46,409 bases of DNA from assembly GCF_900099935.1 (NCBI RefSeq), contig NZ_FNEK01000036.1, positions 1-46,409 of the forward strand, in the 5' to 3' direction. The position numbers were made by a program, and so were the translations under genes. Each line of letters starts with the position of its first letter. Position 1 is the stretch's first letter. This document shows positions 17,069 to 35,500 of this stretch, piece by piece. The notes under the pieces were generated by a model. It was given only the letters and a program-made list of their open reading frames with translations. It was not told the DNA's origin and did no database searches. This stretch comes from Aliiruegeria lutimaris (GTDB lineage: Bacteria; Pseudomonadota; Alphaproteobacteria; Rhodobacterales; Rhodobacteraceae).

Positions 17069-17724
17069 AGGTCCGCCACGAGGCGCCATGGCTGATCGCC
17101 GACCTCGACGGCCCGCGCAGGGTGTTGAGCTGGGCGATAAACCGCCCCGGTTTCGTCACCGCCGAGAGGATCGTCTTCCGAGAGGTCCGCAACAAGGACC
17201 TGCCGGAAGGGCGCGATCCGGTAGTGTGGCTGGCGCAGACCCTTGAAGCCGCTGGCCTGGCGGATGCACCCGCGTTGCTGACTTCCCGGAATGTCGCGTC
17301 CTTCGAATTGCATTGCACGGCGCTGGAGGGCGTCACGGTTCATTGCCTGGCCACGGTCGGCCTTTCCAATGCCGAGCGCGTCGGCTACCGGCAGCGCTTC
17401 GATCCCGCCAGCTTCGGCACGATCAACATCGCGGTTGATTGCTCCGCCGGTCTGACCGAAGCCGCCCAGATCGAAGCGCTAACCATCGCCACGCAAGCCC
17501 GCACGGCGGCGGTGATCGACGCCGGAATGCAATTGCCCGAGGGCCCGGCGACCGGCACCGGAACCGACTGCATCGCCGTTGCGACCCCACCGGGCGAGAT
17601 CGGTTTCGCCGGGCTGCACACCGCGATTGGCGAAGCCGTCGGCCGGGCCGTCTATGACGCGGTTTTCGCCGGTGCGCGGAACTGGATCGCCACCCGTCCG
17701 GACCTTTTGCCCGAACCCGACTGA
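17065..17724 (+). CDS. cbiZ: Adenosylcobinamide amidohydrolase
   Basis: 219 residues. CbiZ removes the aminopropanol side chain of adenosylcobinamide (and in some bacteria of pseudocobalamin) to give adenosylcobyric acid, letting imported incomplete or foreign corrinoids be rebuilt. The CbiZ pattern is visible: VLLTSRNV-type segment (ALLTSRNVASFE), VGLSNAERVG, TINIAVDCSAGLTEAA and GTGTDCIAVATP near the C-terminus. It is the last gene of the riboswitch 2 operon and overlaps btuD by ATGA. This means the cell salvages more than cobalamin itself. No corrinoid synthesis genes lie nearby. Confidence 0.9.
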   Translation: MKVRHEAPWLIADLDGPRRVLSWAINRPGFVTAERIVFREVRNKDLPEGRDPVVWLAQTLEAAGLADAPALLTSRNVASFELHCTALEGVTVHCLATVGLSNAERVGYRQRFDPASFGTINIAVDCSAGLTEAAQIEALTIATQARTAAVIDAGMQLPEGPATGTGTDCIAVATPPGEIGFAGLHTAIGEAVGRAVYDAVFAGARNWIATRPDLLPEPD

Positions 17725-17791: not shown

Positions 17792-18373
17792 TCAGATATT
17801 TCCCTCGATGCGCTCGACCAGATCGACAAGGATCGTCAAGCCGTAGGGCCAGCGCCCGAAGCCACTCTCGGCATTGATATGGCCGGCCGGGCCGAGATCG
17901 ACCCATTCCGACCCCCAATAGGCCGCGAGCTGTTTGGTCCGGTCCAGCGAGATGAGCTGGTCATCATGGCTTGCCACCAGCACAGTCGGCCGATCGAGCC
18001 GGCTACGCGGAATGATCTCCTCCGCCTCGAAGCGCATCGGCTCGGCGGGGGCAACGAACATGGCGCCCGCGACATTCGGCGGGTTCTCGGCCAGCACGCA
18101 GGCGGAAGCCAGCGCCCCCAGCGAATGGCCGATCAGGATCACCGGCTTTTCGCATTCGGTCAGACGCCGATTGATCGCATCGATCCAGTTATGAATATCG
18201 CGGATATCCCAGCGGCTCATGGAAATGCGGGAAAAGAGCGGGGTCTTTTCCTCCCACATCGTCTGCCAATGCTCGGCGGAGGAATTCTTGAAACCGGGCA
18301 CGAGAACGAGATCGTAATTCTCGATATGCCCTTCGAGGGTCTCGATGGCTTCAGGATTTCGGATCGGGCTCAT
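17792..18373 (-). CDS. Small alpha/beta hydrolase, RBBP9/YdeN family
   Basis: 193 residues. N-terminal LVLVPGFKNSSAEHWQTMWE is the RBBP9/YdeN oxyanion-hole and substrate loop; the nucleophile elbow is GHSLGA (~83-88), with an Asp in ASHDDQLI and the catalytic His in GPAGHINAESGFG. Predicted serine hydrolase of unknown substrate. It ends the citrate lyase block, 39 bases after citX, on the same strand, so it may be co-transcribed; a metabolic link is not evident. Confidence 0.85.
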   Translation of the reverse strand: MSPIRNPEAIETLEGHIENYDLVLVPGFKNSSAEHWQTMWEEKTPLFSRISMSRWDIRDIHNWIDAINRRLTECEKPVILIGHSLGALASACVLAENPPNVAGAMFVAPAEPMRFEAEEIIPRSRLDRPTVLVASHDDQLISLDRTKQLAAYWGSEWVDLGPAGHINAESGFGRWPYGLTILVDLVERIEGNI

Positions 18374-18412: not shown

Positions 18413-18979
18413 TCATGGTTTACCCGGCTCATCGGGCAACGCAAGGCTGTTGGCGTCGCGGGCGGCCTGTACGCGCTCGGCGATCACCGCCAACAGTTCT
18501 TCGATCGGGTGGGCGCGGGAGCGAGTGCAGGCATGGGCGGGTTTATCGCAGACAAGGCAACGCCGTTTCTGCAAGCCCACATCTCGGCGGGAGAGCGGGG
18601 TTCCGTCCGCGGCGTGCACATCCAGGTCCCACAGCCGGCCCAGCGGATGGCTCTCTTCCAACGCAACCATGGCGGATTTGAGCGCATGGGCATCCGCTTC
18701 GACCACGTAGAGCGCTTCCGGTCCGGTCTGCAGATCGTCGGCAAATACTTCGGCGAAACGCCAGCCCATGGCCGCGAGCCGGGTCGGGATCGCGATCCGG
18801 GCGGCCTCGGCCAGTTCGATGGCGGCCGGGCAGAGCTTGACCGCACCGGGCAGGACGATGGACAGCGTGATCACGGAACACTGATGGTCCGAAAGCGCTG
18901 CGTCCCGCCTTGCGACGCGGGCCTCGCGCGCGGCGAGGACCGCTTCCAGATCGGTTGGAAGGCCTTCGAAAAGGGTCAT
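18413..18979 (-). CDS. citX: Holo-citrate lyase synthase (apo-CitD prosthetic-group transferase)
   Basis: 188 residues. CitX transfers the phosphoribosyl-dephospho-CoA group onto the serine of the citrate lyase acyl carrier protein. Family motifs are clear: GRLWDLDVHAADGTPLSRRDVG, then RRCLVCDKPAHACTRSRAH near the C-terminus. The start at 18979 overlaps the citG stop by ATGA. With citG it provides the maturation of the lyase encoded upstream. Confidence 0.9.
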   Translation of the reverse strand: MTLFEGLPTDLEAVLAAREARVARRDAALSDHQCSVITLSIVLPGAVKLCPAAIELAEAARIAIPTRLAAMGWRFAEVFADDLQTGPEALYVVEADAHALKSAMVALEESHPLGRLWDLDVHAADGTPLSRRDVGLQKRRCLVCDKPAHACTRSRAHPIEELLAVIAERVQAARDANSLALPDEPGKP

Positions 18980-19899
18980 GCCCCACTGCTTTCGAGCCGC
19001 GCGAAAAACCAGGTAAGGCCGACGAGATCCGCCGTGCCTCCGGGCGAGAGGTTGCGGGCGATGAGGGCGTCGTCGAGCGCTTCGAGCCGGGCAATGAAAT
19101 CGGATGCGTTAGCGCCGAGCCCCGCAATCGCCTCCGCTTCGCGGCGGACATACTCCGTCGCCTCCGGCCCGCCACGGGCGATCAGGTTGGTATCGGCATT
19201 CTGCGCCAGCAGGGCCGCAAGGGCAGCCAGAAGGCAGCGTTCCTCTCCTGCCCCGTGGGAACGTGCGGCGCGAAAGGCAGCCAGCCCGATTTCGCGGACC
19301 GTGGCAAAGCCGGACTCGGCCTCTCCGCGTGCACCGCGTATCCCGTAGCGCCGATAGATATATTCCCCGGCGGTCGTCGCCGTACGGTTGGCCCCGTCGA
19401 GGTCCCGCGCGACGATCCCGGCGGCGATAGCGGCCACCTCGCCACACAGGGCGACGGTCTCCAGAGCCGCCCCCTTTGCGGTCAGGCGACCGGCGGCACC
19501 GAGGGCAAGGCCGAAGGCGAATATCGCTCCCTTGTGCGTATTCACGCCATCCGTCGCGCGGAACATGGCCGCTTCGGCAATCAGGCCGAGGCGACGCAGT
19601 TCTGGCAAGGCCTCCGTCGCCGGCATATCCGCAGAGGCCACACCGGACAGGAAGAATTGCTCGAAGAAGGGCGCGATGGCCGCAGCGCTTGCTTCGAAAG
19701 TGGCGACATTCATGTCCGAATGCGCCCCGTTGTTGCGAAGATCCACCAGGCCCGGTTTGGGTGTCAGATGTACCTCGACCAGCAGCGCCTCGTGGACGAG
19801 CTGGGAAAGATAACCGGCGCGGGAAACCAGGGGAGCGGCGGCCGTTTGGCCAGTGCCGCGCCCCGTAAGAACCGAGATTTCCCGCGCTAGCAGGCTCAT
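18976..19899 (-). CDS. citG: Triphosphoribosyl-dephospho-CoA synthase
   Basis: 307 residues. CitG makes the precursor of the citrate lyase prosthetic group from ATP and dephospho-CoA. Motifs: LLVEVHLTPKPGLVDLRNNGAHSDM (~38-62), GVNTHKGAIFAFGLALGAAG (~118-137) and NADTNLIARGG. It is linked by ATGA overlaps to citF upstream and citX downstream. It is separate from CitX here, unlike the fused CitXG of some bacteria. Confidence 0.9.
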   Translation of the reverse strand: MSLLAREISVLTGRGTGQTAAAPLVSRAGYLSQLVHEALLVEVHLTPKPGLVDLRNNGAHSDMNVATFEASAAAIAPFFEQFFLSGVASADMPATEALPELRRLGLIAEAAMFRATDGVNTHKGAIFAFGLALGAAGRLTAKGAALETVALCGEVAAIAAGIVARDLDGANRTATTAGEYIYRRYGIRGARGEAESGFATVREIGLAAFRAARSHGAGEERCLLAALAALLAQNADTNLIARGGPEATEYVRREAEAIAGLGANASDFIARLEALDDALIARNLSPGGTADLVGLTWFFARLESSGA

Positions 19900-21398
19900 G
19901 GCGCGATCTGCCGGACGGTATCGATGATCGTACCATCGCGATAGCGGACATGGCCCACGACATTGTCGAGGAATTCCAGCGGTTCGGGCTTGCCCGAGAG
20001 CGAAATCGCCCGCTGGTAGAGATCCCCGATCGGTTTGACGGGCAGACCCGCCGCCTTCAGCCGCTCGGCCACATCGGGCCGGTTCGGGTTCACCGCGATG
20101 CCGTGCTCGGTAACGAGTACGCCGACAGTTTCTCCCGGCGTAACCCGGGTGGTTACCTGCTCGACCACGGTCGGGATGCGCGTGCGCAGTAACGGGCCAA
20201 CCACGATGGACAGGTTCGCCCCCGCGGCGGTGTCCGCGTGCCCGCCAATCGCGCCGCGCACGACACCGTCCGAGCCGGTCAGCACGTTGACGTTGAAATT
20301 GAGGTCGATCTCCAGCGCCGAGAGGATCACCATGTCCAGCCGGTCAACCGTGGCACCCTTGGAGAGCGGCGAAGCATAAAACTGGGTGGAGATCTCCATA
20401 TGCGAGGCGTTTGCCTGCAGGGATCGGGCGGCGACGGCATCGAAGCTCTGGGTGTCGACCAGCGTGCCGATCAACCCTTTCTCGTGCAGGTCCACCATGC
20501 CGCCGGTCTGCCCGCCAAGCGCCCATCCGGCCTTGATTCCCTTGGCCCGCATCCGGTGTTCGAGAAAGCGCGATGTCGCGGTGGAGGAGCCGCCCGTCCC
20601 GGTCTGCATCGAGAAGCCGTCCTCGAAGTAACCGGCATGTTCCATCACCTCGGCGCAGAGCTTGGCAATAAGAAGCTCGCGCGGGTTGGTGGTGGCGCGG
20701 GCCGCACCGACGGAGATCTTGGCCGGGTCGCCCACTTCCTCGACCTGCACGATCCAGTCGACCTGATCCTGCCGGATCGAAGCCGGGTTGTTCGGGAAGG
20801 GTACGATCTCCTCGGTGAGCATGACGACCTTGTCGGCATACATCGCGTCCACCATCGCGTAGCCAAGCGAGCCGCACCAACTGCGCCCGGACACGCCATT
20901 GGCATTGCCGAACGGGTCGCAGGCGGAGACGCCGAGAAAGGCAACGTCGATCTCGATCTCGCCCTGCTCGATCAGCGCCACGCGGCCGCCATGGGAGTGG
21001 AAGGTGACGGGTTCGTCCATGAGGCCGTTGGAAATGGCCTCGCCCAGCTTGCCGCGCAGGCCGGAAGTGAAGAGCTTGCGGATCACGCCGGACTGGATAT
21101 TCGGGATGATGGCCGCGTTGATGCCAAGCAGCGAGCTGGGCGCCAGCGTGAGGTCCTTGAACCCCATCCGCGCCAGCGTCTCGACCACCAGGTTGATCAC
21201 CTTGTCGCCCTCGCGGAAGGCGTGGTGGAAGGAGACGGTCATGCCATCCTTCAGCCCGGTCCGGCGAATAGCTTCCTCAAGGTCAGGGAGGATCTTGCGG
21301 TCGCCATTGGCCTCGGGCCCGGTGGCAAAGGGGATCTTCGCGTTGAAGCCTGCGAAGGGGGCGAGCCCTGCGACCTGCGGGTTGCGATCAGATGCCAT
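19896..21398 (-). CDS. citF: Citrate lyase alpha subunit (citrate:acetyl-ACP transferase)
   Basis: 500 residues. CitF swaps acetyl for citryl on the carrier protein. Typical sequences include LKDGMTVSFHHAFREGD, QTGTGGSSTATSRFLEHRM, a GGQTGGMVDLHEKGLIGTLVDTQ-like region and GAIGGHADTAAGANLSIVV. The ATG at 21398 is preferred because AAGGAG lies eight bases upstream; a GTG at 21407 overlaps the citE stop and is the alternative. It sits between citE and citG. Confidence 0.9.
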   Translation of the reverse strand: MASDRNPQVAGLAPFAGFNAKIPFATGPEANGDRKILPDLEEAIRRTGLKDGMTVSFHHAFREGDKVINLVVETLARMGFKDLTLAPSSLLGINAAIIPNIQSGVIRKLFTSGLRGKLGEAISNGLMDEPVTFHSHGGRVALIEQGEIEIDVAFLGVSACDPFGNANGVSGRSWCGSLGYAMVDAMYADKVVMLTEEIVPFPNNPASIRQDQVDWIVQVEEVGDPAKISVGAARATTNPRELLIAKLCAEVMEHAGYFEDGFSMQTGTGGSSTATSRFLEHRMRAKGIKAGWALGGQTGGMVDLHEKGLIGTLVDTQSFDAVAARSLQANASHMEISTQFYASPLSKGATVDRLDMVILSALEIDLNFNVNVLTGSDGVVRGAIGGHADTAAGANLSIVVGPLLRTRIPTVVEQVTTRVTPGETVGVLVTEHGIAVNPNRPDVAERLKAAGLPVKPIGDLYQRAISLSGKPEPLEFLDNVVGHVRYRDGTIIDTVRQIAP

Positions 21399-21403
21399 GT
21401 CTC

Positions 21404-22279
21404 TCACTCCTTGCGCAGGCCGGAGGCTGCGGCGCGGTCCAGCACGCGGCGGGCATTGTCCACCACGGGGCCGTCGATCATCTTGCCGCCCATGGCGATC
21501 ACGCCGAGGCCCTGTTTCTCGGCCTTCTCGGCAGCGGCGACGACGCGTCTGGCGTAGTCCATCTCCTCCTGCGTCGGCGCGTAGGCATTGTGGAGCAATT
21601 CGATCTGACGCGGGTTGATCAGCGATTTGCCGTTGAAGCCGAGCCTTTTGATCAGGTCCACCTCCTTGAGGAAGCCTTCCTCGTCATCGAGATCGGAGAA
21701 GACAACGTCGTAGCAGTCGATCTTGGCGGCGCGGGCAGCGTGGAGGACGGCGCAGCGGGCATAGAAAAGCTCCGTTCCGTCGCCGCGCTGCGTCTGCATG
21801 TCCATCACGTAATCGAAACCTGCCAGCGCGATGCCGGTGATGCGCGGGCTGGCCTGCGCGATGGCGAGCGCATTGACGACACCCGAGGCGCTCTCGATGG
21901 CGGCCATCAGGTGGGTGGAGCCAACTTCCCGGCCGCAGTCGCGTTCGATCCGCTCGACCGCTGCTTCCAGTTCGCGAACCTGTTCAGGCGTATCCGTCTT
22001 GGGCAGGCGGATCGTGTCGGCGCCGCCGCGAATGGCGGCCTGCAGATCGTCATGGCCAAAGGGTGTGTCCAGCGGGTTGATCCGCACAACGCGCTCGATG
22101 CCGTCATAGAGCGGCTGTTGCAGAGCGTGGAAGACGAGCAGCCGCGCGGCGTCCTTCTCGCGCAGCGACACGGCGTCTTCTAGGTCGAACATCACCGAGT
22201 CGGGTTTGAAGACGAAAGCGGTGGACAGGCTCGCAGCCGAGGAGCCCGGCACGAAGAGCATGGAACGGCGAAGTCTCAT
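21404..22279 (-). CDS. citE: Citrate lyase beta subunit (citryl-ACP lyase)
   Basis: 291 residues, HpcH/HpaI aldolase-like TIM barrel. CitE splits citryl-ACP into oxaloacetate and acetyl-ACP. MRRSMLF-type start ([15 protein letters not shown]), [20 protein letters not shown] with the metal/substrate acidic residues, [14 protein letters not shown], and [15 protein letters not shown] are diagnostic. The start at 22279 overlaps the citD stop by ATGA. Confidence 0.92.
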
Positions 22280-22569
22280 TTCAGCGCCTCCCAGTCGAGC
22301 GTCGTCTCGCCCGCCGCGCGCATCACGGCGGCCTGAACGCGGGCGCGGATGGTGCAATCGAGCGCGCCTTTGTCCTGGATGATCAGCGTGCCGGTGGTCA
22401 CGCCGAGATGGTCCAGAACCTCCTCCACGGTGGCGCGGATCTGCTTGCCGAACTGGTGCAGGACCTCGCTCTCGATCACGATCTCAAGCGGATCGTCCGA
22501 GGGCGTGATGCGGATGAAGAGATCGCTGGACTCGAGCGTCCCGGCCAGCGCCTCCTGTTTGAGCAACAT
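22276..22569 (-). CDS. citD: Citrate lyase acyl carrier protein (gamma subunit)
   Basis: 97 residues. CitD carries the CoA-derived prosthetic group on a serine; S14 in the [11 protein letters not shown] sequence is the expected attachment site. The start at 22569 has GGAGAGGAA upstream. It is followed by citE with an ATGA overlap, the standard citDEF order. Confidence 0.92.
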
Positions 22570-22618
22570 TTTGCATTCCTCTCCGTTTGGCCCACGCCGC
22601 GAGCGGGCCGGTATCCTG

Positions 22619-23659
22619 TCACCCCTGTTGCGCGACAAGGGCTACGTATTTCGTCTTCAACAGCTCGAAGGTCGCGGGCGGCACAAGGTTGCGAATGCTG
22701 TCAAGGTCGCCCTCGTAGAGATGCCTGCGCACTTCGGATGCCGAAATGGCGGTGCCATTGAACTCGGTTCGGGGTATTTCCACGACTTTGATCGCCGGCC
22801 CGCTGCCGCGCACCTCGTCCTGCAGCCAGACCATCATGTCGCTATTGTACTTGTTCGTCGTCGGGCAGAAGGGCTCCGTGCCGACGAAACGATGCGTGAT
22901 ACCAAGCGCGGGCGCGATATGGTTGCGGAACATCAGCAGATCCACAGCTGTGTGGCATTTGCCGACGATCCCCTGATCCTTGAGGAAATAGCAGGAGAAG
23001 GTCGCGCGGCTAACCATGTATTGCGAGCCGGGATGCAGGGTCAGGTTGGGGATGCCCAGGATGTTTTCCTCGGCCAGGTAGTAGCGATCCTGGTAGGAAA
23101 ACAGCGAAACATCCTCGCGCACCATGAACAGGTGCAGCCAGTCGCACGCCTTCGCCGCCTGCTCGACAAGGTAGCGGTGGCCATAAGTGAACGGGTTGGC
23201 GTTCGCCACGACGCAGCCGATTTTCTCGCCCTCTACACGGTGCTTCTGCAATTGCTTGCAGTAGGATTTGATGCCGATCGGCGTGTTCTCCATCAGCACC
23301 ACGGTGTCGGGCATTTCCACAAGGTCGTAGAAACCGCAGCCGCGAAAGAATTCGGCGTTCTTCGGCTCCGTATAGACGAAAAGCGTGGCATATCCGTGGC
23401 TGTGGGCGAGATAGGTGATTTCGCTCACCAGCGTCAGCGAAAGCGCCGTGCCGCGATATTCCGGAAGGATTGCAACACCCTTGATGACGTTCTGCTGCAG
23501 GCCCGCGCAGGCAACGAGCCGATCGCGGTCACGGCAGACGACGAAGGTTTCGATCCCCTGTTCGTAGAGCAGATCGCAAGCGCCCAGCAGCTTCTTGATC
23601 TCGCGGCGCTCGGCATCTTCGTGATCCGGCTCGACGGTATAGAAATCGAGGTCTTCCAT
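22619..23659 (-). CDS. citC: Citrate lyase ligase (acetate:SH-citrate lyase ligase)
   Basis: 346 residues. CitC acetylates the carrier protein thiol with acetate and ATP to activate the lyase. An N-terminal GNAT-like acetyltransferase fold (~1-120, LPEYRGTALSLTLVSEI) precedes a nucleotidyltransferase-like domain with NPFTYGHRYLVEQAA, the HxGH-like ATP site, and TAISASEVRRHL. It is the first of the cit genes proper, 170 bases after the DUF4387 gene, with a strong hairpin in that gap. Confidence 0.92.
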   Translation of the reverse strand: MEDLDFYTVEPDHEDAERREIKKLLGACDLLYEQGIETFVVCRDRDRLVACAGLQQNVIKGVAILPEYRGTALSLTLVSEITYLAHSHGYATLFVYTEPKNAEFFRGCGFYDLVEMPDTVVLMENTPIGIKSYCKQLQKHRVEGEKIGCVVANANPFTYGHRYLVEQAAKACDWLHLFMVREDVSLFSYQDRYYLAEENILGIPNLTLHPGSQYMVSRATFSCYFLKDQGIVGKCHTAVDLLMFRNHIAPALGITHRFVGTEPFCPTTNKYNSDMMVWLQDEVRGSGPAIKVVEIPRTEFNGTAISASEVRRHLYEGDLDSIRNLVPPATFELLKTKYVALVAQQG

Positions 23660-23784
23660 GGCGACCAGGGTCCGATCTGGTGCGGTGACGCCGAGAGCTG
23701 CCGCCGCTTTTGGCGAAGGCCGGTCTCTCGCTACGTCAAGCGGTATTGCCCGCGTGGCGCCCGGAGAAAACCGACAATGTTGCA

Positions 23785-23823
23785 GCCCTGCCCGGCGGTC
23801 AGTGCATGTTATCCGGGCAGGGC
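23785..23823 (-). promoter_or_regulatory. Strong stem-loop between the DUF4387 gene and citC
   Basis: GCCCTGCCCGG (23785-23795) and CCGGGCAGGGC (23813-23823) form a perfect 11-bp stem with a 17-base loop, starting seven bases after the DUF4387 stop on the minus strand. A GGTTTTCTCC tract follows about 12 bases later, too far for a typical intrinsic terminator. It could be a leaky terminator or an mRNA-processing/stability element that sets different levels for tctCBA-atuA and cit genes. Confidence 0.6.
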
Positions 23824-23829
23824 GCTGGT

Positions 23830-24129
23830 TCAGATCTCCATTTCGGCCACGAGGGCGGCAAAGGAGGCGCCGTGCATGTCACGGTCCAGTCGCGTGCCCT
23901 GAATCTGGGGCCTCGGGATCGAGAACTTGACCACGTTGAGGCTGTCGATGTCGAAACGCTTAAGCAGCGTCGCATCGGCTTGCAAAAGCTTCACCACGGC
24001 CTCCGTCTTCAGCCCTTCGGAGACGCGCCGGAACATCTCCGGGGTACCGCAGAAGATGTCGATGGTCAGCCAGAACGGCCCTGCATTCTTGGAGCGGACC
24101 TTGGGAACGATATCGCCGAGCCTGCTCAT
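23830..24129 (-). CDS. DUF4387 protein (partner of the AtuA-family protein)
   Basis: 99 residues. It fits DUF4387: KVRSKNAGPFWLTIDIFCGT (~10-29) and a C-terminal SLNVVKFSIPRPQIQGTRLDRDMHGAS-like region. DUF4387 proteins are repeatedly encoded next to AtuA-family (DUF1446) proteins; their reaction is not known to me. Here it overlaps the AtuA gene by ATGA (24126-24129), which supports a two-subunit enzyme. The position between a tricarboxylate transporter and citrate lyase suggests a tricarboxylate or hydroxy-acid substrate. Confidence 0.82.
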   Translation of the reverse strand: MSRLGDIVPKVRSKNAGPFWLTIDIFCGTPEMFRRVSEGLKTEAVVKLLQADATLLKRFDIDSLNVVKFSIPRPQIQGTRLDRDMHGASFAALVAEMEI

Positions 24130-25475
24130 GCGCCGATCTCCACGGTCTCAAGGGAAAAGGCCTCCCACGGGTCCGCAAGCTCCAGCACGTGGTTGAGGCA
24201 GAACTCGTAGACCATGCCGCGGTTCATCTCCGGCGGCGAGAAGGGGAAGGCAAAGGTCGGCATCTCCTCCTGTTCCGTCAGCGGGTGATGGAGCAGGTAG
24301 GGGTTGAGGATCTTGGCCACCTCGCGGGCCATCGCCTCGGTATCGGCGGTGACAATGCCGAGCACGCCGACCTCGCTGCCGATCTGCGCCTTGGCATCGA
24401 GGGGGCCGAGTGTGGCATCGGCCCCGATCAGGCGCAGCTCCAGCGAGAAGCCGTCCCCTGCCCTTTCTCGCACCTTGGCGCTGCACTTGGTCTCGATGTC
24501 ATCGCACCACGCGCGGATATTCTCGACGTAACGGTGGTCCCGCACCAAGGCGAGCGAGACAACCTGGTAGCCCGCCTTGCGCGCGCCTTCGAGCTTCACC
24601 GTGTAGCGCTCCGAGGGCACCCATTTCGAGCCCGTCACGCGCACGCGGCGGTCGTCGAGCGCTGTATACGTGGCCTCGGTCACGTCGAGATGCCCGCCCG
24701 GCTCGTAAAGGACATACGGGTCAGAATTCTCGTAGAGCATGTGGGCGGAGACGGTGTGGGGCGTGGCCCGCGCCTCCGCCCCCATCGGAGTCATGGTGAA
24801 ACCTTCCGCGTCGAACTCGATCAGGATCGTGCCCGAATTGGGCGAGGTCGTCGCCAGCGCCCCGCACTCGCCGATCTTGGCGCCATGCCAGGCCCCGCCG
24901 GGGTGGCAGCCGCGCGACAGAGGCAGCGCCGAGATGATCGCGGTATCCGTGGTCCGCCCGGCGATGACGATATCGGCGCCGGTCTCCAGCGCGCCCTGGA
25001 TATGTTCGGCCCCGGCAAGAGCGACGATATTGGTGCATTCGTCGATCAGCTCGGGCGAAATCTCGGGCGCCGGCACCAGCGGCGTCACCTTGCCCGCGCC
25101 CAGCGCATGGGCGATCCGCGACGCTGGCTGGCCGGACTTCAGCACCGCCACCTTGAGCGTCTCGCCCGTTTCGGCGGCGATTTCGCGGGTGATGTCGAGC
25201 AGCCAGTCCACGGCGCTGTCGGCACCACAGGTGCCGGCGGTACCGATCAACAGCGGCACGCCGGCTTCACGGCGGGCAGCCATCAGCTCTCGCCATTCGG
25301 CCTTGGTCGAATTGGCGGAATATTTCGAGGTCCCGGTTCCAAGGTAATGGGGCCCACTATCCGTGGACCCCCCGTCGATGGCAATGATATCGGGTTTCTC
25401 GGTGATACCCCGGGCGAGCGCGTCACGGTCGTAACCGAGACCCAGCGCGCCCGAGGGGATGAGAACCTTGACCAT
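24126..25475 (-). CDS. AtuA-family (DUF1446) protein
   Basis: 449 residues. The N-terminus KVLIPSGALGLGYD, the IAIDGGSTDSGPHYLG loop (~33-48), LLIGTAGTCGAD and DIVIAGRTTDTAIISALPL are AtuA/DUF1446 hallmarks. AtuA was named from acyclic terpene use, but the family is broad and mostly uncharacterised. The start at 25475 shares one base with the tctA stop (TGATG), and the stop overlaps the DUF4387 gene by ATGA, so tctCBA-atuA-DUF4387 is one translational chain. A role in converting the imported tricarboxylate, perhaps into citrate, is inferred from context only. Confidence 0.85.
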   Translation of the reverse strand: MVKVLIPSGALGLGYDRDALARGITEKPDIIAIDGGSTDSGPHYLGTGTSKYSANSTKAEWRELMAARREAGVPLLIGTAGTCGADSAVDWLLDITREIAAETGETLKVAVLKSGQPASRIAHALGAGKVTPLVPAPEISPELIDECTNIVALAGAEHIQGALETGADIVIAGRTTDTAIISALPLSRGCHPGGAWHGAKIGECGALATTSPNSGTILIEFDAEGFTMTPMGAEARATPHTVSAHMLYENSDPYVLYEPGGHLDVTEATYTALDDRRVRVTGSKWVPSERYTVKLEGARKAGYQVVSLALVRDHRYVENIRAWCDDIETKCSAKVRERAGDGFSLELRLIGADATLGPLDAKAQIGSEVGVLGIVTADTEAMAREVAKILNPYLLHHPLTEQEEMPTFAFPFSPPEMNRGMVYEFCLNHVLELADPWEAFSLETVEIGA

Positions 25476-26980
25476 CAATCGGTAATCCTCTGCGGCTTCT
25501 TCAGGACCTTGCGCAGGAACATCGGCGCGACGAAGCCCGCAACCGCCACGAGCCAGAGGCCAATGGAGATGGGGGAGGAGAAGAGATAGCCGATCTCCCC
25601 ATCCGAGAGCACCATGGCCCGGCGCAGCGCGTCCTCCATGTGGCCGCCCAGAAGGATACCGAGGATGATCGGCACCGTGGGCACGTCAAGCTTGCGCAGC
25701 ACGAAGCCGAGCGCACCGAAGGCTACCATGAGCAGCAGGTCGAAATAGCTGCCCGAGAGCGAGTAGATGCCGACGAAGGAGACCATCGTCACGCCCGGCA
25801 GCAGCACCCATGGCGGAACCATCAGGATCTTCACGAAGACCTTCACCATCGGCACGTTCATCAGCAGAAGCACGACGTTGGCGATCAGCAGCGAGGCGAT
25901 AAGGCCCCAGACCACTTCCGGCCGCTCGGTGAAGAGCGTCGGACCCGGCGTGATGTTGAGCGTCATCAGCAGCGCCAGCAGGACGGCGGTGGTCCCGGAA
26001 CCCGGAACACCAAGCGTTAGCATCGGCACCAGTGCACCACCGGCGGCCGCGTTGTTGCCTGCCTCGGGGGCTGCGACCCCCTTGGGGACACCGGTTCCGA
26101 ACTTGCCTTCCTCGCCGGCAATGCTCTTCTCGGTCATGTAGCTGAGGAAGGAGCCGAGCGAGGCACCGGCACCGGGCAGAACGCCGGCGATAAAGCCGAT
26201 GAGCGAGCAGCGCAGCATGGTCCATTTCGTCTCGACGATGTCCTTCCATGGGATCGTCACCTTATCCAGCTTGACTCCGATGGAGGTGTTCTTGCCGTGG
26301 CTCTCGATGAAGAAGAACACTTCGGCAATGGCGAAGAGACCGACGATGGCGACAAGGAAGTCCACGCCGTCATAGAGGTGCAGGTTGCCCCCCGTGAGGC
26401 GCGGCAGGCCGGAGTTGTTGTCCACACCGATCATGGCGATACCGAGACCGATACAGGAGGCGATGGCGGCCTTGGCCTGGTTGTTGGAGGACATGCCGCC
26501 AAGGGTGGCGAAAGCCAGCATGTAAAGGGCGAAATACTCGGCAGGACCGAAGACGAAGGCCACGCGAGCCAGCAGTGGCGCCAGCACAATGAGCCCAAGC
26601 GTGGCGAGGAAGGCACCGACGAAGGAGGCGACGCCGGAAAGCACCAGCGCGTCACCGGCGCGACCGGCCTTTGCCATTGGGTAGCCGTCGAGCGTGGTCA
26701 TCAGCGCCGGTTCGTCGCCGGGAATGTTGAGCAAAATCGAAGAGATACGACCACCATACATGGCGCCGTAATAAACCGCGGTCATCAGGACCAGCGCGGA
26801 GGTCGCGTCGAGCCCCACGGTGAAGGTGATCGGGATGAGGATCGCGACGCCGTTCGAGGGCCCGAGGCCCGGCAGGGCGCCGACAATCGTGCCGATGAAA
26901 CAGCCGATCACGGCCAGCATCAGCGTGAAAGGCGAGAGAGCGACGCCAAAACCCATCGCGAGATTTGAAAGAATGTCCAT
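25475..26980 (-). CDS. tctA: Tripartite tricarboxylate transporter, large membrane subunit
   Basis: 501 residues, about 11-12 membrane helices. TctA motifs: GALPGLGPSNGVAILIPITF (~35-54), YGAMYGGRISSILLNIPGDEPA (~72-93), a second Gly-rich repeat GVLPGAGASLGSFLSYMTEKS (~265) and GSGTTAVLLALLM. It is the sodium- or proton-coupled channel for the TctC-delivered substrate, such as citrate or tricarballylate. It follows tctB by ten bases. Confidence 0.93.
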   Translation of the reverse strand: MDILSNLAMGFGVALSPFTLMLAVIGCFIGTIVGALPGLGPSNGVAILIPITFTVGLDATSALVLMTAVYYGAMYGGRISSILLNIPGDEPALMTTLDGYPMAKAGRAGDALVLSGVASFVGAFLATLGLIVLAPLLARVAFVFGPAEYFALYMLAFATLGGMSSNNQAKAAIASCIGLGIAMIGVDNNSGLPRLTGGNLHLYDGVDFLVAIVGLFAIAEVFFFIESHGKNTSIGVKLDKVTIPWKDIVETKWTMLRCSLIGFIAGVLPGAGASLGSFLSYMTEKSIAGEEGKFGTGVPKGVAAPEAGNNAAAGGALVPMLTLGVPGSGTTAVLLALLMTLNITPGPTLFTERPEVVWGLIASLLIANVVLLLMNVPMVKVFVKILMVPPWVLLPGVTMVSFVGIYSLSGSYFDLLLMVAFGALGFVLRKLDVPTVPIILGILLGGHMEDALRRAMVLSDGEIGYLFSSPISIGLWLVAVAGFVAPMFLRKVLKKPQRITD

Positions 26981-26990
26981 GGCGCGCCCC

Positions 26991-27431
26991 TCAGCCCAGC
27001 ATCGATTTCGGTACCGCGACGAGGCCGAGGCCGAGCGCGTATTTGAAGATCAGGAACAGCCCGAGTGAAAGACCGATACCGGCCAGCACGGCCTTTACGG
27101 GTTTTGGCTGAATCTGGTAGGACAGGAACCCCGCGGCGATCGCCGTCGGCAGCAGGAAACCCAGCGGCTTGAGTGCATAGGCATAGCCTATGAGGACGAT
27201 CACCGAGAGAGCCAGCGCCCCCAGCGTGGCAAGCTCGGGCCATTCGGGGTCCGGGTCGGGCCGGATGGCGATGACCATGCCACACAGGGCAGCCACGGAG
27301 CCGATGATGATGGGGAAGGTGCGCGGGCCGACGGGGTCGGCCATGAAACCGGTCTGGATCTGTGTGGCGCTGGCGATATACGCCAGCGCCACCAAGGTCG
27401 CGACCGCACCGAAGATACGGTCAGAGGCCAT
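26991..27431 (-). CDS. tctB: Tripartite tricarboxylate transporter, small membrane subunit
   Basis: 146 residues with four predicted membrane helices (start MASDRIFGAVATLVALAYIA; helices near 6-24, 38-56, 74-100, 108-140). TctB proteins are poorly conserved but recognised by this topology and position. The ATG at 27431 shares one base with the tctC stop (TAATG). Confidence 0.88.
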   Translation of the reverse strand: MASDRIFGAVATLVALAYIASATQIQTGFMADPVGPRTFPIIIGSVAALCGMVIAIRPDPDPEWPELATLGALALSVIVLIGYAYALKPLGFLLPTAIAAGFLSYQIQPKPVKAVLAGIGLSLGLFLIFKYALGLGLVAVPKSMLG

Positions 27432-28390
27432 TACTGGATGACCCCCAGTTGCTTGGAAAGTGTGTTCACGTCGGCAACGACCTGATCGACATAGTTCTGG
27501 AAGTCGGCGCCGACCTTGGTGAACTCGGCCAGACCGTTGGCTTCCATAGCCGCTTTCCACTCGTCGCTATCGGCGACCTGCTTCAGCTTCTCGGCCCACA
27601 TGTCGAAGGTCTCGTCGGAAACGCCCTTCGGGATGTAGAGGCCGCGCCAGTTCACCGCGACCACGTCGACACCCTGCTCCTTGGCGGTCGGGATGTCATC
27701 GAAGCCCGGCACGCGCTCTTCGGTCAGAACCGCCAGTACGCGCACATCGCCCGACTTCAGGAAGCCCACGACCTCGGACATGTCGCCTGTCATTGCCTTG
27801 GTGAAGCCACCCACGGTCTGGGTGATGGCGTCGCCGCCATTGTTGGTCGAGATGTACTTGACCTTGGTCACGTCCTCAACACCAGCCTTCTGGAACACCA
27901 TCAGCGGCTTGAGGTGATCGAAGCCACCCACCGCGGAGCCACCGGCGAAGGAAACCGAGGTCGGATCCGCCTTGGCGGCTTCGATGAGTTCGTTGAGGTT
28001 CTGGAACTCGCTGTCCTTGCCGACAACGATCACGCCCGGGTCGGCGCCGATCGAGCCAACCCAGCGGACCTGGTCAGCGGTCATGCCGGCATAGGCGTTC
28101 TGGGCCAGACGCGTGGTGGTCGCCGAGGACGCGGCGATGATCAGCTCGGCGTCGTCATTGCGCTCGGCCACGACGTGGGCATAGGCAAGACCGCCACCGG
28201 CGCCGGCCATGTTCGTCACCTGGATCGGCTTGTCCACGGCGCCGATGTCGAACATGATCTTGCCGATCTGGCGGCAGGTGAAGTCCCAGCCGCCGCCGGG
28301 GTTGGCAGGCGCGATACATTCGGCGGCGAGCGCCGAGGTTGCTGTCAGGGCAAAAGTTGCACCGGCAAACAGGATGGATTTCGGATTCAT
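27431..28390 (-). CDS. tctC: Tripartite tricarboxylate transporter, periplasmic binding protein
   Basis: 319 residues with a signal peptide (MNPKSILFAGATFALTATSALA). The ECIAPANPGGGWDFTCRQIG and VTNMAGAGGGLAYAHV stretches (~25-80) are the TctC/BugD ligand-binding loops; two extra cysteines (C25, C40) could form a disulfide. It captures the tricarboxylate and delivers it to TctAB. The start at 28390 has AAGGGAGG upstream. It is the first gene of the operon, separated from the regulatory genes by 140 bases holding candidate operators. Confidence 0.92.
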   Translation of the reverse strand: MNPKSILFAGATFALTATSALAAECIAPANPGGGWDFTCRQIGKIMFDIGAVDKPIQVTNMAGAGGGLAYAHVVAERNDDAELIIAASSATTTRLAQNAYAGMTADQVRWVGSIGADPGVIVVGKDSEFQNLNELIEAAKADPTSVSFAGGSAVGGFDHLKPLMVFQKAGVEDVTKVKYISTNNGGDAITQTVGGFTKAMTGDMSEVVGFLKSGDVRVLAVLTEERVPGFDDIPTAKEQGVDVVAVNWRGLYIPKGVSDETFDMWAEKLKQVADSDEWKAAMEANGLAEFTKVGADFQNYVDQVVADVNTLSKQLGVIQ

Positions 28391-28405
28391 GGATAGACCT
28401 CCCTT

Positions 28406-28471
28406 GGAATCGTTCTGGCCGACGGCCATCGGAATCGATTGTTGAAGCCAAAACCTGACACCATCCTGTCA
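28406..28471 (-). promoter_or_regulatory. Candidate operator region upstream of tctC
   Basis: A symmetrical TGACA-N6-TGTCA lies at 28456-28471. Nearer to tctC are TGGCCG-A-CGGCCA (28416-28428) and a direct repeat GGAATCG (28406-28412 and 28431-28437, 25 bases apart). The TGACA dyad is the best candidate for the binding site of the TctD response regulator; this is inference from position. Confidence 0.45.
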
Positions 28472-28530: not shown

Positions 28531-29568
28531 CTATTCCCGCACCACGGCGTCCAGCCACGCCTTGGAGAAGGAGGCACGCTTTAAGTCGTCGAGATAGACC
28601 AGCAGCCCCGGACCGATCCTTATCGGGCGCAGCGAAGGAGTCTCGTCGCTCGCGCGCGGATTGACGGTGGCAAAGGGGTAATAATCGGGTGGATCTCCGC
28701 TCCAGGCCGCCTCCAGAAGGAAATCGACAAAAGCACCACCGAGCCCCGGGCTCCTGGAGCTTGCCGGGATGAGGGCGGTACGGTGCATGACCGTCACGAA
28801 ATCCTCCGGCATGACGATCTCGATGGCCTCGCCCGCTGCCTGTCGCGGCTCGGCATAGGAGCCCAGCGCGTTATAGGCGAAGGCAAGCTTTCCCGACGCT
28901 ACATCGCTGATCATCTCTGCGGAACAGCAATAGAGATGGGTGCCGAGCCCGCCCATGACCTCCATCAGGCGCCAGAATATCTCGGACGTGCGTGCGTCCT
29001 GCGTCGCAAACAGGTAGCCTGCACCGCTGCTGCGAATGTCGTAGGTGCCGATCCGGCCTCGAAAACGCTCCGGATGTTCGCGCAGCAGCGTGATCAGGTC
29101 CTGCCGGTTGCGGGGCCGCGCCAGCCCCTCGAACGCCGCCGGGGAGACGACCAGCGTCGCCGCTTCCTGCGTGAAGGCAAAGACCTGATCGCGCCAATTG
29201 GCCCAATCTGGCAGCCGGGACGTGGCCGTGGAGACGTGGCTCCGTGCCATCCCGTCATTGGCCAGCTTGGTCTGCAGATCCATCGCGGAAGACAGGGCGA
29301 CATCGAAGGCCTGCCCTTCGCTCATGAGGGCGTTCATCATCTCGGTGGAACTGGCCACGGTATAGTCGATTGTGGTGCCCGGGTTGCTTTCCTGAAACGC
29401 ACGCAGCATCGGCTCGAAGATCTCGATATCGGTGGTCGACAGGATCCGCAGCACCGGGCTGCCCGGCGCGGCCTCGTAGATGACATGCGCTTCGCTCTCG
29501 AAGGCGCGGGCGGCGGTGCCCAGCGTGATCAGGGTGATCAGGACAGGGGCAAGACGAGCGAGACGCAT
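28531..29568 (-). CDS. Periplasmic binding protein paired with TctDE
   Basis: 345 residues: signal peptide (~1-22), then an iron/sulfate-type extracellular binding fold (LRILSTTDIEIFEPMLRAFQESNPGTTIDY). Such proteins are commonly the third gene beside tctD-tctE and are thought to act in ligand sensing or uptake. No ABC permease or ATPase genes are near, so a sensory role with TctE is likely. It overlaps tctE by 31 bases (29538-29568), showing co-translation. Confidence 0.8.
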   Translation of the reverse strand: MRLARLAPVLITLITLGTAARAFESEAHVIYEAAPGSPVLRILSTTDIEIFEPMLRAFQESNPGTTIDYTVASSTEMMNALMSEGQAFDVALSSAMDLQTKLANDGMARSHVSTATSRLPDWANWRDQVFAFTQEAATLVVSPAAFEGLARPRNRQDLITLLREHPERFRGRIGTYDIRSSGAGYLFATQDARTSEIFWRLMEVMGGLGTHLYCCSAEMISDVASGKLAFAYNALGSYAEPRQAAGEAIEIVMPEDFVTVMHRTALIPASSRSPGLGGAFVDFLLEAAWSGDPPDYYPFATVNPRASDETPSLRPIRIGPGLLVYLDDLKRASFSKAWLDAVVRE

Positions 29569-30923
29569 GCGCCAACTCCTTCCGGGTTCTGTTCGAGTTC
29601 AAGCCGACCGCCATGCGCCTGGGCAACCTCGTCGGCAATGGTCAGCCCGAGGCCGGAGCCGACCGTGCCCTGCGAATTGCTGCCCCGCGCGAAACGTCGG
29701 GTCAGCCGCTTGCCGGCCCCTTTGGGAAAGCCCGCTCCCTGGTCGCTGACTTGGATATGACAGGCGCCGTCCTCGGCCCACATGTCCACGGCGATATCGC
29801 TCTCCGCGGGGGAATACTTGACGGCATTGTCCAGCAGGTTGCCGAGAGCGTTCTGGATTAGGATCGGGTCGCCCGTCACCCGCAGATCGGTCGGGGCGAC
29901 GACGGTGATCGCAATGTCCTTCAAACCGGCCACCGGCTGCAGGCGGCGCACGGTTTCGGCGATCAGGTCGCTCGGCCGGAGCGGCACATGTTCGAGCTGG
30001 TCCGTGCGGAAGGTGACCATCGCGTGATCCAGAAGCTGGCCGGCGGCACGGGAGCTTTCGTCCAGCGCATGGATCATGTCGTTGAGCGAGGCGCGGTTCT
30101 CTGGCTTGTCCATGCGGTTCAGCGCGATCTCGGCCTGCGCACGCACGGTCGCAAGCGGCGTGCGGACACGGTGGGCCGCTTCGGCCATGAAATCTTCGGA
30201 GCGTGTGAGCGTGATCTGCAAGCGGCCGATGAGCCGGTTGAGCGCCTCGACCAATGGCGCCATTTCCCGCGGCACCTCGGCCACGACCGGACGCAGGTCC
30301 TGCGGCCCCCGGCGCGAAACGGAAGCAGCGAGCCGTTCCAGCGGATCGATGGCAGACTGCGCCACGGCCACGGCCAGCGCACCCGCGACGGCGAAGAAGC
30401 CGATCCCGAGATAGACCGCGTTGCGCCAGATCTCCTGCAGCGTCTCTTGCGCGCCACCCCGGGTCTGCGCAACGGAGACGGTGACATGGATCGGGCGCTG
30501 CCCGCGCGCCAGGAGCCGCGATGCCGTGGCCATGCGCACGCTCTCGCCCAGGAAATCCACCGTATCGTAGCTGCGCCCGCGCTCATTGGCCTGAAGAGCC
30601 GACCTGGGCAGATCCTCGTAGCCTGTCAGATGCGCGCCATCGACCGTGACCCTGTAGAACACCCGGTCATCGGAGACATTGCCGAGCATCGCCATCGCGG
30701 CATAGGGAATGTCGATGCTGATCTCGCCATCCAGAACTGTGGCGGATTCGAGAATGGAAGTTACGGAGGCATCGAGGATATTGTCCTGGCTGACCTGCGC
30801 GACCTTCTCGGCAAAGTTCAGCACGATGACAAAAAGCAGCCCCGCCAGCAGTGCCGAAGACAGCAGAAGCCGAAACGTGAGGCGGCGGCGGATCGAGCCG
30901 GTGATGACGGCCTTGTCGCTCAT
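29538..30923 (-). CDS. tctE: Sensor histidine kinase of the TctE type
   Basis: 461 residues in the inner membrane: TM1 (~14-36), a periplasmic 2CSK_N-type sensor (~37-165), TM2 (~170-190), HAMP, H-box with the phosphorylated His in AAHRVRTPLATVRAQ (~250), N-box DNAVKYSP and G-boxes DQGAGFPKG and GSGLGLTIADEV. It would sense a tricarboxylate directly or through the neighbouring binding protein, and phosphorylate TctD. ATGA overlap with tctD. Confidence 0.9.
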   Translation of the reverse strand: MSDKAVITGSIRRRLTFRLLLSSALLAGLLFVIVLNFAEKVAQVSQDNILDASVTSILESATVLDGEISIDIPYAAMAMLGNVSDDRVFYRVTVDGAHLTGYEDLPRSALQANERGRSYDTVDFLGESVRMATASRLLARGQRPIHVTVSVAQTRGGAQETLQEIWRNAVYLGIGFFAVAGALAVAVAQSAIDPLERLAASVSRRGPQDLRPVVAEVPREMAPLVEALNRLIGRLQITLTRSEDFMAEAAHRVRTPLATVRAQAEIALNRMDKPENRASLNDMIHALDESSRAAGQLLDHAMVTFRTDQLEHVPLRPSDLIAETVRRLQPVAGLKDIAITVVAPTDLRVTGDPILIQNALGNLLDNAVKYSPAESDIAVDMWAEDGACHIQVSDQGAGFPKGAGKRLTRRFARGSNSQGTVGSGLGLTIADEVAQAHGGRLELEQNPEGVGACVSLVLPLS

Positions 30924-31585
30924 TCCACCTGCAGCCGGTAGCCGAGCCCGCGCACGGTGACGATGGAAACCGGCGAGCCGTCGAGATGCTTGCGCAGGCG
31001 GCCGACATAGACCTCGATCGCGTTCTCGGAGACCTCCTCCTCGTAGGAAAACAGCCGGTCCACGAGTTTCGCCTTGCTCAGGATCTGGTCCTGCGCGCCG
31101 AGAAACAGCTCCAGCAGGCGCAGTTCCTTGGCCCGAAGCGTGGTGGTGCGGTCGCCCACCTTGAGCGTGCCGGCCTGTGGATCGAAGGTGAGATTGCCGA
31201 TATGGCGCTGGTTGGTACCGCTGCCGCCCCGCCGCCGCAACACCGCCCGACAGCGCGCCTCCAGTTCGGAGAAATCGAAGGGCTTGGTCAGGTAGTCATC
31301 GGCGCCGAGATCGAGCACCGTCACCCGGTCCGAGACCTCGGAACGCGCGGTTAGTACTATGACCGGGGTTTCGTCCTGCAATCGGCGCTGCTCTTCGAGG
31401 AAATCCCGCCCGTCGCCATCGGGCAGCATGATATCGAGCAGGATCAGGTCATATTCCGTGGTGGCAATAAAGTCCTTGCCCGAGGCAATATCCGGGCCGT
31501 GATCGACGACATGCCCATCCAGCGTGAGGCGCTCCGTTACGGCGGAGGCCAGCTTGGCATTGTCCTCGATCAGCAGGAATCGCAC
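30920..31585 (-). CDS. tctD: OmpR-family response regulator of the TctD type
   Basis: 221 residues. Receiver domain with acidic pocket E7/D8, phospho-acceptor D51 (LILLDIMLPDGDG) and Lys in LTKPFDFSE; C-terminal winged helix ending VSIVTVRGLGYRLQVE. The start is a GTG at 31585 (VRFLLIEDNAKL), supported by GGAGGA eight bases upstream; the longer open frame from 31687 has no family similarity. It likely activates tctCBA. Confidence 0.9.
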   Translation of the reverse strand: MRFLLIEDNAKLASAVTERLTLDGHVVDHGPDIASGKDFIATTEYDLILLDIMLPDGDGRDFLEEQRRLQDETPVIVLTARSEVSDRVTVLDLGADDYLTKPFDFSELEARCRAVLRRRGGSGTNQRHIGNLTFDPQAGTLKVGDRTTTLRAKELRLLELFLGAQDQILSKAKLVDRLFSYEEEVSENAIEVYVGRLRKHLDGSPVSIVTVRGLGYRLQVE

Positions 31586-31673
31586 CCGAATTCTCCTCCA
31601 AAGCGCAGATCCGGCCCGGTTGGGGTCGATCCGCTGCGATGCTAATGCAAGCGCGCGCGGTGATCCATCGACG

Positions 31674-31704
31674 AAAAGAGCCGGCAACGCGCAGCTGCCG
31701 GCTC
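31674..31704 (-). terminator. Rho-independent terminator after otnI
   Basis: GAGCCGGCA and TGCCGGCTC form a perfect 9-bp stem (31678-31704), followed on the minus strand by TTTTCG. It closes the threonate operon and separates it from tctD. Confidence 0.88.
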
Positions 31705-31727: not shown

Positions 31728-32480
31728 TCAGCCCTTCATCCAGCCGAGGCCCTCATCCGTCGTGCCACGCGGCTTGTATTCGGCGCCAAGCGGGGCGTCA
31801 TAGCCGAGGCTCGCGATATGGGCGAAGATGTGGTCGTAATTCACCTCGCCGCAATCGGGCTCGGTGCGCTCGGGCACGCTGGCGAACTGGATATGGCCGA
31901 TCACCGGCAGACGGTCCGTGAGGCGCCGGGTCAGGTCACCCTCCATGATCTGAAGGTGGTAGCAGTCGAACATCAGCTTGATATTCGGCGCGCCGACTTC
32001 CTTGATGATCTCCACCGCCTGCGCGGAGGTGCCGAGGAAATAGCCCGGCGCGTCATGATGGTTGAGCGGCTCGATCAGGATGGTCTTGCCGAGCTTCGCC
32101 GCCTGTTCGCAGGCATAGCGCAAGTTGGCGACGAAGGTCGCGTGCGCTTCCGGGCCTTTGGCGAAACCGGCCATGACATGGACATTCGGCGTACCGATTA
32201 CCTCGGCATAGGCGAGCGCCTGATCGATGGCCGCCTTGGCCTCAGCCTCGCGGCCGGGCAGCGCGCAGAGCCCGTTTTCGCCGGGATTGCCGCGCACGGT
32301 GTTGAGGCCGAGCATGGTCAGCCCGGTCTCCTTGAGTGCGGCGGCCACGTCTTCGGCGGGCGTCTCGAAGGGCCAGTGACACTCGACTGCGTCGAAACCG
32401 GCGGCCTTGGCGGCGCGAACGGCATCGGGGAGGGAAAGCTCGGTCCACAGGAAGCCGAGATTGGCGGAAAACTTGGTCAT
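31728..32480 (-). CDS. otnI: 2-oxo-tetronate isomerase
   Basis: 250 residues, AP-endonuclease/xylose-isomerase-like TIM barrel of the hydroxypyruvate isomerase family. FSANLGFLWTELSLPDAVRAA, FDAVECHWPFETP, ILIEPLNHHDAPGYFL and LMFDCYHLQIMEGDL carry the acidic and His metal ligands. It interconverts 2-oxo- and 3-oxo-tetronates so that both threonate and erythronate can enter the pathway. The start at 32480 lies one base after the otnC stop; a start at 32501 inside otnC is less likely. Confidence 0.88.
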   Translation of the reverse strand: MTKFSANLGFLWTELSLPDAVRAAKAAGFDAVECHWPFETPAEDVAAALKETGLTMLGLNTVRGNPGENGLCALPGREAEAKAAIDQALAYAEVIGTPNVHVMAGFAKGPEAHATFVANLRYACEQAAKLGKTILIEPLNHHDAPGYFLGTSAQAVEIIKEVGAPNIKLMFDCYHLQIMEGDLTRRLTDRLPVIGHIQFASVPERTEPDCGEVNYDHIFAHIASLGYDAPLGAEYKPRGTTDEGLGWMKG

Positions 32481-32481
32481 A

Positions 32482-34409: not shown

Positions 34410-34474
34410 CGTGCTCTCCATCCCTTCCGTTTGGAACCATCCGGGCCGGAAGCGCTCCGGCCCGGCATGGTCAA

Positions 34475-35380: not shown

Positions 35381-35500
35381 TGCATTCCTCCTGGATTCCG
35401 GGCGCAGGCCCGTAACGCCCCGGACCGCGCCGCGGCCCGTTTGAACGACCTGCATTGGCGCCTCCGCAGCGTTTCGGCGATCTTCGTTGGATGTCGCCTT

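Follow-up and report, generated by a model that had tools for sequence, protein, structure and literature searches.

The window analyzed here, a 46,409-nucleotide stretch of an Aliiruegeria lutimaris genome (contig NZ_FNEK01000036.1), carries a minus-strand array of genes in the order response regulator, sensor kinase, solute-binding protein, TctC, TctB, TctA, AtuA, DUF4387, citC, citD, citE, citF, citG, citX and a small serine hydrolase. The genes of central interest encode an AtuA-family protein (Pfam match PF07287; 24126..25478 on the minus strand from a TTG start, or 24126-25475 from the following ATG) and a DUF4387 protein (Pfam match PF14330; 23830..24129, minus strand), the candidate large (A) and small (B) subunits of a CmlAB-type lyase. 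They follow the genes for a tripartite tricarboxylate transporter, all on the same strand: the large membrane subunit TctA (25475..26980; PF01970, E 3e-148), the small membrane subunit TctB (26991..27431 with an ATG start; PF07331) and the periplasmic binding protein TctC (27431..28429; PF03401), which also matches TTT binding proteins in the PDB. AtuA and DUF4387 overlap by four bases, TctA and AtuA by one base with the ATG start or four with the TTG start, and TctB and TctC have one base in common. These coordinates bear out the tight tctC-tctB-tctA-atuA-DUF4387 chain described in the first-pass annotation, with one- or four-base overlaps from tctA through DUF4387; the position 25475 given there is the ATG start of AtuA.

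Upstream on the minus strand lie a solute-binding protein of the iron-binding type (28531..29568; PF01547, with a match to 3c9h_A at E 2.6e-53), a sensor histidine kinase (29538..30923) with PF08521 2CSK_N, HisKA and HATPase_c domains, which we take from this domain content to be TctE-like, and an OmpR-type response regulator (30920..31687; PF00072 and PF00486). The genes for the binding protein and the kinase overlap, and the binding protein adjoins kinase and regulator in many relatives. It is perhaps an accessory protein of the kinase, to which it may deliver the ligand or a complexed metal.

Downstream of the pair, again on the minus strand, we found citrate lyase ligase citC (22619..23659; TIGR00124, 388 bits against a cut-off of 262.1), the acyl carrier protein citD (22276..22638 as the longest frame, with the family match starting at residue 24; TIGR01608, 105.6 bits, cut-off 63.5), the beta subunit citE (21404..22357 as the longest frame, with the family match from residue 28; TIGR01588, 446.6 bits, cut-off 443.4), the alpha subunit citF (19896..21407; TIGR01584, 716.8 bits, cut-off 501.45), citG (18976..19899; TIGR03125, 304.7 bits, cut-off 272.3) and citX (18413..18979; PF03802). 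CitC, D, E, F and G all pass the NCBIfam equivalog cut-offs, CitE by only about 3 bits, and with CitX also present the operon is classified by sequence as that of a citrate lyase, for which specificity for citrate rather than citramalate is a prediction. A small serine hydrolase (17792..18373, minus strand; PF06821) follows citX in the window, in the related locus L031 of Aliiruegeria sabulilitoris and in the unlinked cit operons of the congeneric genomes G008 and G006; we know of no role for it in citrate lyase function.

Two further clusters are present in the window. Positions 31728-35455 on the minus strand encode Xylose-isomerase-like TIM barrel, class II aldolase, SBD_N/NBD_C and 3-hydroxyisobutyrate-dehydrogenase-like proteins; by its look we take this to be a four-carbon acid sugar catabolic operon, with the SBD_N/NBD_C protein presumably a kinase of the four-carbon acid sugar type and the gene at 35625-36635 on the plus strand presumably a LacI-type regulator beside it. 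At 14488-17724 on the plus strand, a periplasmic binding protein, a FecCD permease and a CbiZ adenosylcobinamide amidohydrolase, together with what we assume to be an ABC-ATPase-like frame within the cluster, perhaps serve corrinoid uptake and salvage.

We compared the AtuA-DUF4387 pair to proteins of known structure. When searched against PDB sequences, AtuA matched a single molecule, chain A of 9erq (E 2.4e-77), which is named 'Acyclic terpene utilization AtuA family protein / Citramalate lyase, subunit A (cmlA)', and DUF4387 matched the partner chain 9erq B, 'Citramalate lyase, subunit B (cmlB)' (E 1e-8). Structures predicted by AlphaFold for the two window proteins (mean pLDDT 90.8 each) gave the same answer in Foldseek, where 9evf_A (TM 0.93) and 9evf_B (TM 0.83) were the sole matches with E <= 0.001 for AtuA and DUF4387, respectively. 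The 9evf entry, released 2025-10-08, is entitled 'Citramalate lyase - ADP - pyruvate complex'. What is said here about CmlAB comes from the titles of PDB entries and the names of their molecules: a literature search on the lyase and its structure yielded no paper describing 9erq or 9evf among the matches listed, and in the literature searched we found no mention of DUF4387. The earlier statement that AtuA and DUF4387 lack a firm biochemical assignment is thus outdated, and the two-subunit enzyme proposed at the same time is supported by the matches of both proteins to citramalate lyase chains A and B.

The residues conserved in the family are nearly all retained. Using position sets chosen without the window clade, we found 32 of 34 AtuA positions (conserved in at least 95% of 13 CmlA-clade rows and at least 90% of 33 others) and 12 of 13 DUF4387 positions (at least 90% conserved outside the window clade) to be kept in the window proteins. 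These counts draw on 145 of 166 sequences, from which duplicate places, L152, L153 and short fragments had been excluded beforehand; the two structure alignments hold 56 and 51 rows from 81 possible. Large-subunit sequence and predicted fold, an adjacent small subunit in the same A-then-B gene order and the conserved residues together place the window pair in the CmlAB family, and its homology to the solved citramalate lyase makes it probably a C-C lyase itself.

The window pair is, as judged from sequence comparison, a family member rather than a close orthologue of that enzyme. Window AtuA is 35% identical to CmlA, and 31 AtuA positions are fixed differently between the window and CmlA groups (at least 95% within each), among them Thr177, which is Tyr in the CmlA clade and may line the substrate pocket. 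In a maximum-likelihood tree of 58 hand-picked rows, the window clade (21 rows plus L024; support 100/99) and the CmlA clade (8 rows; 100/97) are separated by other subfamilies, so that the window pair falls outside the clade of the solved lyase. The low identity and the separate clade imply that its substrate may differ from that of CmlAB, and even the reaction could be another.

The genomic setting of CmlA itself is informative. Its printed residues share 94.5% identity with a protein encoded in the Pseudomonadota genome G505, where the locus also matches glutamate mutase, methylaspartate ammonia-lyase and fumarase, and 91.5% identity with AtuA from an annotated Escherichia coli cluster with the order glmS-glmL-glmE-methylaspartate ammonia-lyase-AtuA-DUF4387-symporter-class I fumarase. 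A Prevotella nigrescens cluster is similarly composed (glmS-glmL-glmE-mal-AtuA-DUF4387-hypothetical-fumarase). From their gene content, the AtuA-DUF4387 pair stands at a step of these clusters that requires a citramalate lyase. The clostridial methylaspartate cluster carries Cit-type genes that putatively encode a citramalate lyase for the same step; for the enterobacterial cluster, the same source describes the DUF1446 gene as being of unknown function and the later fate of (S)-citramalate as unclear (PMC4682846). Unlike CmlAB, which goes with glm, mal and fumarase genes, the window pair is transporter-linked: none of the 71 related loci surveyed below has a marker for glutamate mutase, methylaspartate ammonia-lyase or fumarase/mesaconase less than 10 kb away, and the source genome has no match to the methylaspartate ammonia-lyase family PF07476.

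We also compared the pair to the AtuA of acyclic terpene utilization, which belongs to the same PF07287 family. This namesake is tentatively listed as an acetate-releasing lyase, with carboxymethyl-to-acetate chemistry proposed (PMC4847356), and such chemistry supports a common reaction type with the window pair. The terpene-locus AtuA L181 (3557-5362), an example from a carboxylase context, differs in being a single chain of 601 aa with a C-terminal PF23544 'AtuA_ferredoxin' domain; it has no Pfam DUF4387 match, keeps 18 of the 34 family-conserved positions and found nothing when searched against PDB sequences. Window AtuA carries PF07287 only, and neither a fused ferredoxin domain nor a geranyl-CoA carboxylase context, the two marks of the acyclic terpene type, was found for the window pair. 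The suggestion that DUF4387 might be a detached form of the ferredoxin-like domain comes from a 3-bit match to that domain of L181 in a one-target search.

We next turn to the neighborhoods of the pair in 80 related loci, the best 80 of 412 relatives and hence close relatives only. Context was counted in the 71 loci of at least 7 kb, the 9 shorter ones being excluded. DUF4387 directly follows AtuA in 71/71, and all but four (L051, L054, L056 and L066), hence 67, have a TctA gene no more than 10 kb away; matches to the kinase and regulator are found within the same distance in 43. The source genome has 11 TctA matches in 5.81 Mb, so that chance alone would place about 0.04 in a 20-kb neighborhood, and the adjacency is above chance, with the reservation that the loci are related and do not represent 71 independent events. 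The nearest TctA belongs to one of three types when joined at 55% identity: 61 lie upstream on the same strand as in the window, 10 downstream on the same strand and 6 upstream in another type (4 on the opposite strand, 2 on the same), over 77 loci that include later ones and count the G008 place at least twice (L032, L159). Three TctA types in distinct positions represent separate pairings with one transporter family, which argues for a functional link. The proposed tie of the pair to a tricarboxylate-type transporter is supported. Of the two associations that the first-pass annotation would have compared across genomes, the one with tct genes stood and the one with cit genes did not, as CitF lies near the pair in a single one of the 71 loci (L031), besides the window. 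Downstream cover reaches at least 5 kb in 65 of the 71 loci and at least 2 kb in 70, so that a few of the cit absences concern sequence beyond the fetched stretch. A family III CoA transferase is found in 8/71 loci, and in 5/71 it is accompanied by a short protein resembling citrate synthase, possibly a citryl-CoA lyase. The set of genes that most relatives have in common is limited to those for the transporter, the pair and the sensor system.

Wider contexts vary. Outgroup loci with 43-47% identity (L168, L171, L173) have a CitMHS citrate-type transporter beside the pair in place of TctA, and aconitase matches lie near it in L168 and L173. Among more distant relatives, a class I fumarase is found near L113 and L184 and an MmgE/PrpD protein near L179 and L182. 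None of the searched markers was detected at L120, L163, L164, L166, L172, L191, L194, L196, L197, L201 and L202, which indicates that the AtuA-DUF4387 family is broad. The informative contexts agree with a lyase whose substrates are tertiary hydroxy acids, either imported or formed by hydratases. As separate observations, D-2-hydroxyacid dehydrogenase matches lie beside the pair in L117, L119, L168 and L173, and L117 and L119 also contain hydantoinase/oxoprolinase genes, perhaps reflecting a further substrate class. TonB-dependent receptors are located upstream of the pair in L170 and of the CitMHS-pair set in L171; both may serve to take up metal-citrate-like complexes.

The explanation we favor, and hold to be probable, is that the pair is an acetate-releasing C-C lyase of the CmlAB type acting on an imported citrate- or citramalate-type acid, rather than a feeder of citrate lyase. 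The substrate would be a tertiary alcohol bearing a carboxymethyl arm, bound by TctC, imported by TctAB and possibly sensed by the binding protein-kinase-regulator set. AtuA and DUF4387 would then act as a two-subunit lyase, splitting the acid into acetate, derived from the carboxymethyl arm, and a 2-oxo acid that enters central metabolism; the latter would be pyruvate if citramalate is cleaved and oxaloacetate if citrate is. With ADP named in the title of the homologous structure, activation may proceed by phosphorylation: the enzyme may depend on an adenine nucleotide, perhaps to phosphorylate the leaving carboxylate transiently where citrate lyase uses a thioester, and release of acetate (or acetyl phosphate) would then involve neither CoA nor ACP. 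Alternatively, the ADP in 9evf could be regulatory or incidental. The transporter, pair and sensor set that stand alone in most relatives would be enough for an import-cleavage route of this kind.

As to the natural substrate, we give similar weight to a citrate-type tricarboxylate and to citramalate, with the tricarboxylate slightly higher; the type of transporter is weak evidence on this point. It is possible, if still tentative, that the window clade splits citrate or a homologue into acetate and a 2-oxo diacid without ACP or CoA. In the wider clade, two unrelated citrate-type transporter families (TctABC and CitMHS) lie beside the pair, aconitase neighbors it in two loci, citrate lyase genes accompany it in the window and L031 and the citryl-CoA-lyase-like module in five loci, and the threonine that replaces the tyrosine of the CmlA clade would be in keeping with an altered pocket. 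However, citrate is already an intermediate of the TCA cycle, which would not need a lyase if citrate were the substrate, and we know of no such ACP- and CoA-free activity for this clade. A somewhat more doubtful reading is that the pair is a true citramalate lyase, sharing the substrate of CmlAB, with TctABC importing citramalate. Homology and fold speak for it, and the recurrent gene set would suffice to convert citramalate into pyruvate and acetate; the different clade with its group-specific positions speaks against it, and the aconitase and CitMHS genes of some outgroup loci point to tricarboxylates instead.

We regard as very improbable that the pair binds a nucleotide and a metabolite in an accessory or regulatory, non-catalytic role in the window clade. 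The ADP of the homologous structure and the tight coupling to the transporter would agree with such a role, but nearly all family-conserved positions are kept, and a similar pair stands at a required enzymatic step in the methylaspartate clusters.

The relation of the pair to the adjoining citrate lyase genes can be judged from their junction (23660..23829, minus strand). The start of citC (23659) lies 170 bp past the DUF4387 stop, and tight coupling consequently stops short of the cit genes. In genome G008, from the same genus, tct-atuA-DUF4387 and citCDEFGX-hydrolase lie apart on two contigs, both over 50 kb away from the nearest contig end. When we aligned the window to these loci, homology to the G008 tct-atuA locus stopped 8 bp past the DUF4387 stop, and homology to its unlinked cit locus started 3 bp into citC. 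The junction contains a hairpin with an 11-bp stem, which we considered as a candidate terminator. Its fold does not reach significance (z -1.7, with 11 of 200 shuffled sequences folding equally well), and a scan for terminator- or promoter-like sites after DUF4387, which covered loops of 3-8 only and could not list this hairpin, found none. Co-transcription from DUF4387 into citC is possible. A conserved tct-atuA-DUF4387-cit operon was considered and set aside, since the gap, the junction and the unlinked copies argue against it.

The juxtaposition is also rare. Among 146 relatives, DUF4387 is present in 28 and full-length CitF in 7 (G000, G006, G008, G012, G013, G027, G042); both occur in G000, G008 and G027 but were seen together only in the window's own genome. 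G006 has a cit operon without DUF4387, and in G027 the two genes are on different contigs, with citF near a contig end, so that linkage is possible there. Across 398 Pseudomonadota genomes, DUF4387 was found in 25, full-length CitF in 8 and both in 2, the own genome and G505, the latter with roughly 114 kb between them; the own genome is again the only one with the two side by side. The joined arrangement, common to the window and L031, therefore looks lineage-specific, and its rarity leads us to judge that the modules were probably joined in this lineage rather than separated elsewhere.

In the first-pass annotation, the pair was to supply the neighboring citrate lyase with its substrate by isomerizing or otherwise converting the acid taken up, or else to handle a product of that lyase. 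The two-subunit enzyme of that proposal stands; the feeding of citrate lyase, to which the adjoining citCDEFGX genes of the window and L031 had pointed, deserves hardly any credence given the homology of the pair to a lyase, the single CitF neighborhood among the related loci, the separate cit operons of G008 and G006 and the one side-by-side case in 398 genomes. Citrate lyase uses an ACP thioester prosthetic group and is built from other protein families, but the expected net chemistry is alike, the carboxymethyl arm leaving as acetate. Under the acetate-releasing lyase reading, citCDEFGX would be a separate ACP-thioester lyase module with the same overall chemistry, joined to the pair in the window and Aliiruegeria sabulilitoris lineage, and the two lyases may share a substrate.

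Taken further, the window clade might constitute a nucleotide-dependent lyase for citrate or a homologue that dispenses with both CoA and the ACP prosthetic group. This would be a third biochemical solution to citrate cleavage, one that marine Rhodobacterales couple to the uptake of tricarboxylates and that could be exchanged for the adjoining ACP-type (citDEF) and CoA-type (CoA transferase plus citryl-CoA lyase) modules; we put this forward as a speculative extension that we consider unlikely as it stands. The functional puzzle posed by these proteins has largely been answered by the recent structure, and the new part is a transporter-linked CmlAB clade.

A CmlAB-type pair is a likely answer to the fate of (S)-citramalate in the enterobacterial methylaspartate clusters, a question raised earlier (PMC4682846). 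In the window and its relatives, the 'AtuA family / DUF4387' pair becomes a testable lyase with an import system. Alphaproteobacteria, for the most part Rhodobacterales among the loci seen, may thus have a pathway for the breakdown of citrate- or citramalate-type acids, and a route for an imported citrate-like acid that is possibly undescribed, in which cleavage of an unactivated carboxymethyl arm may proceed unlike that in citrate lyase.
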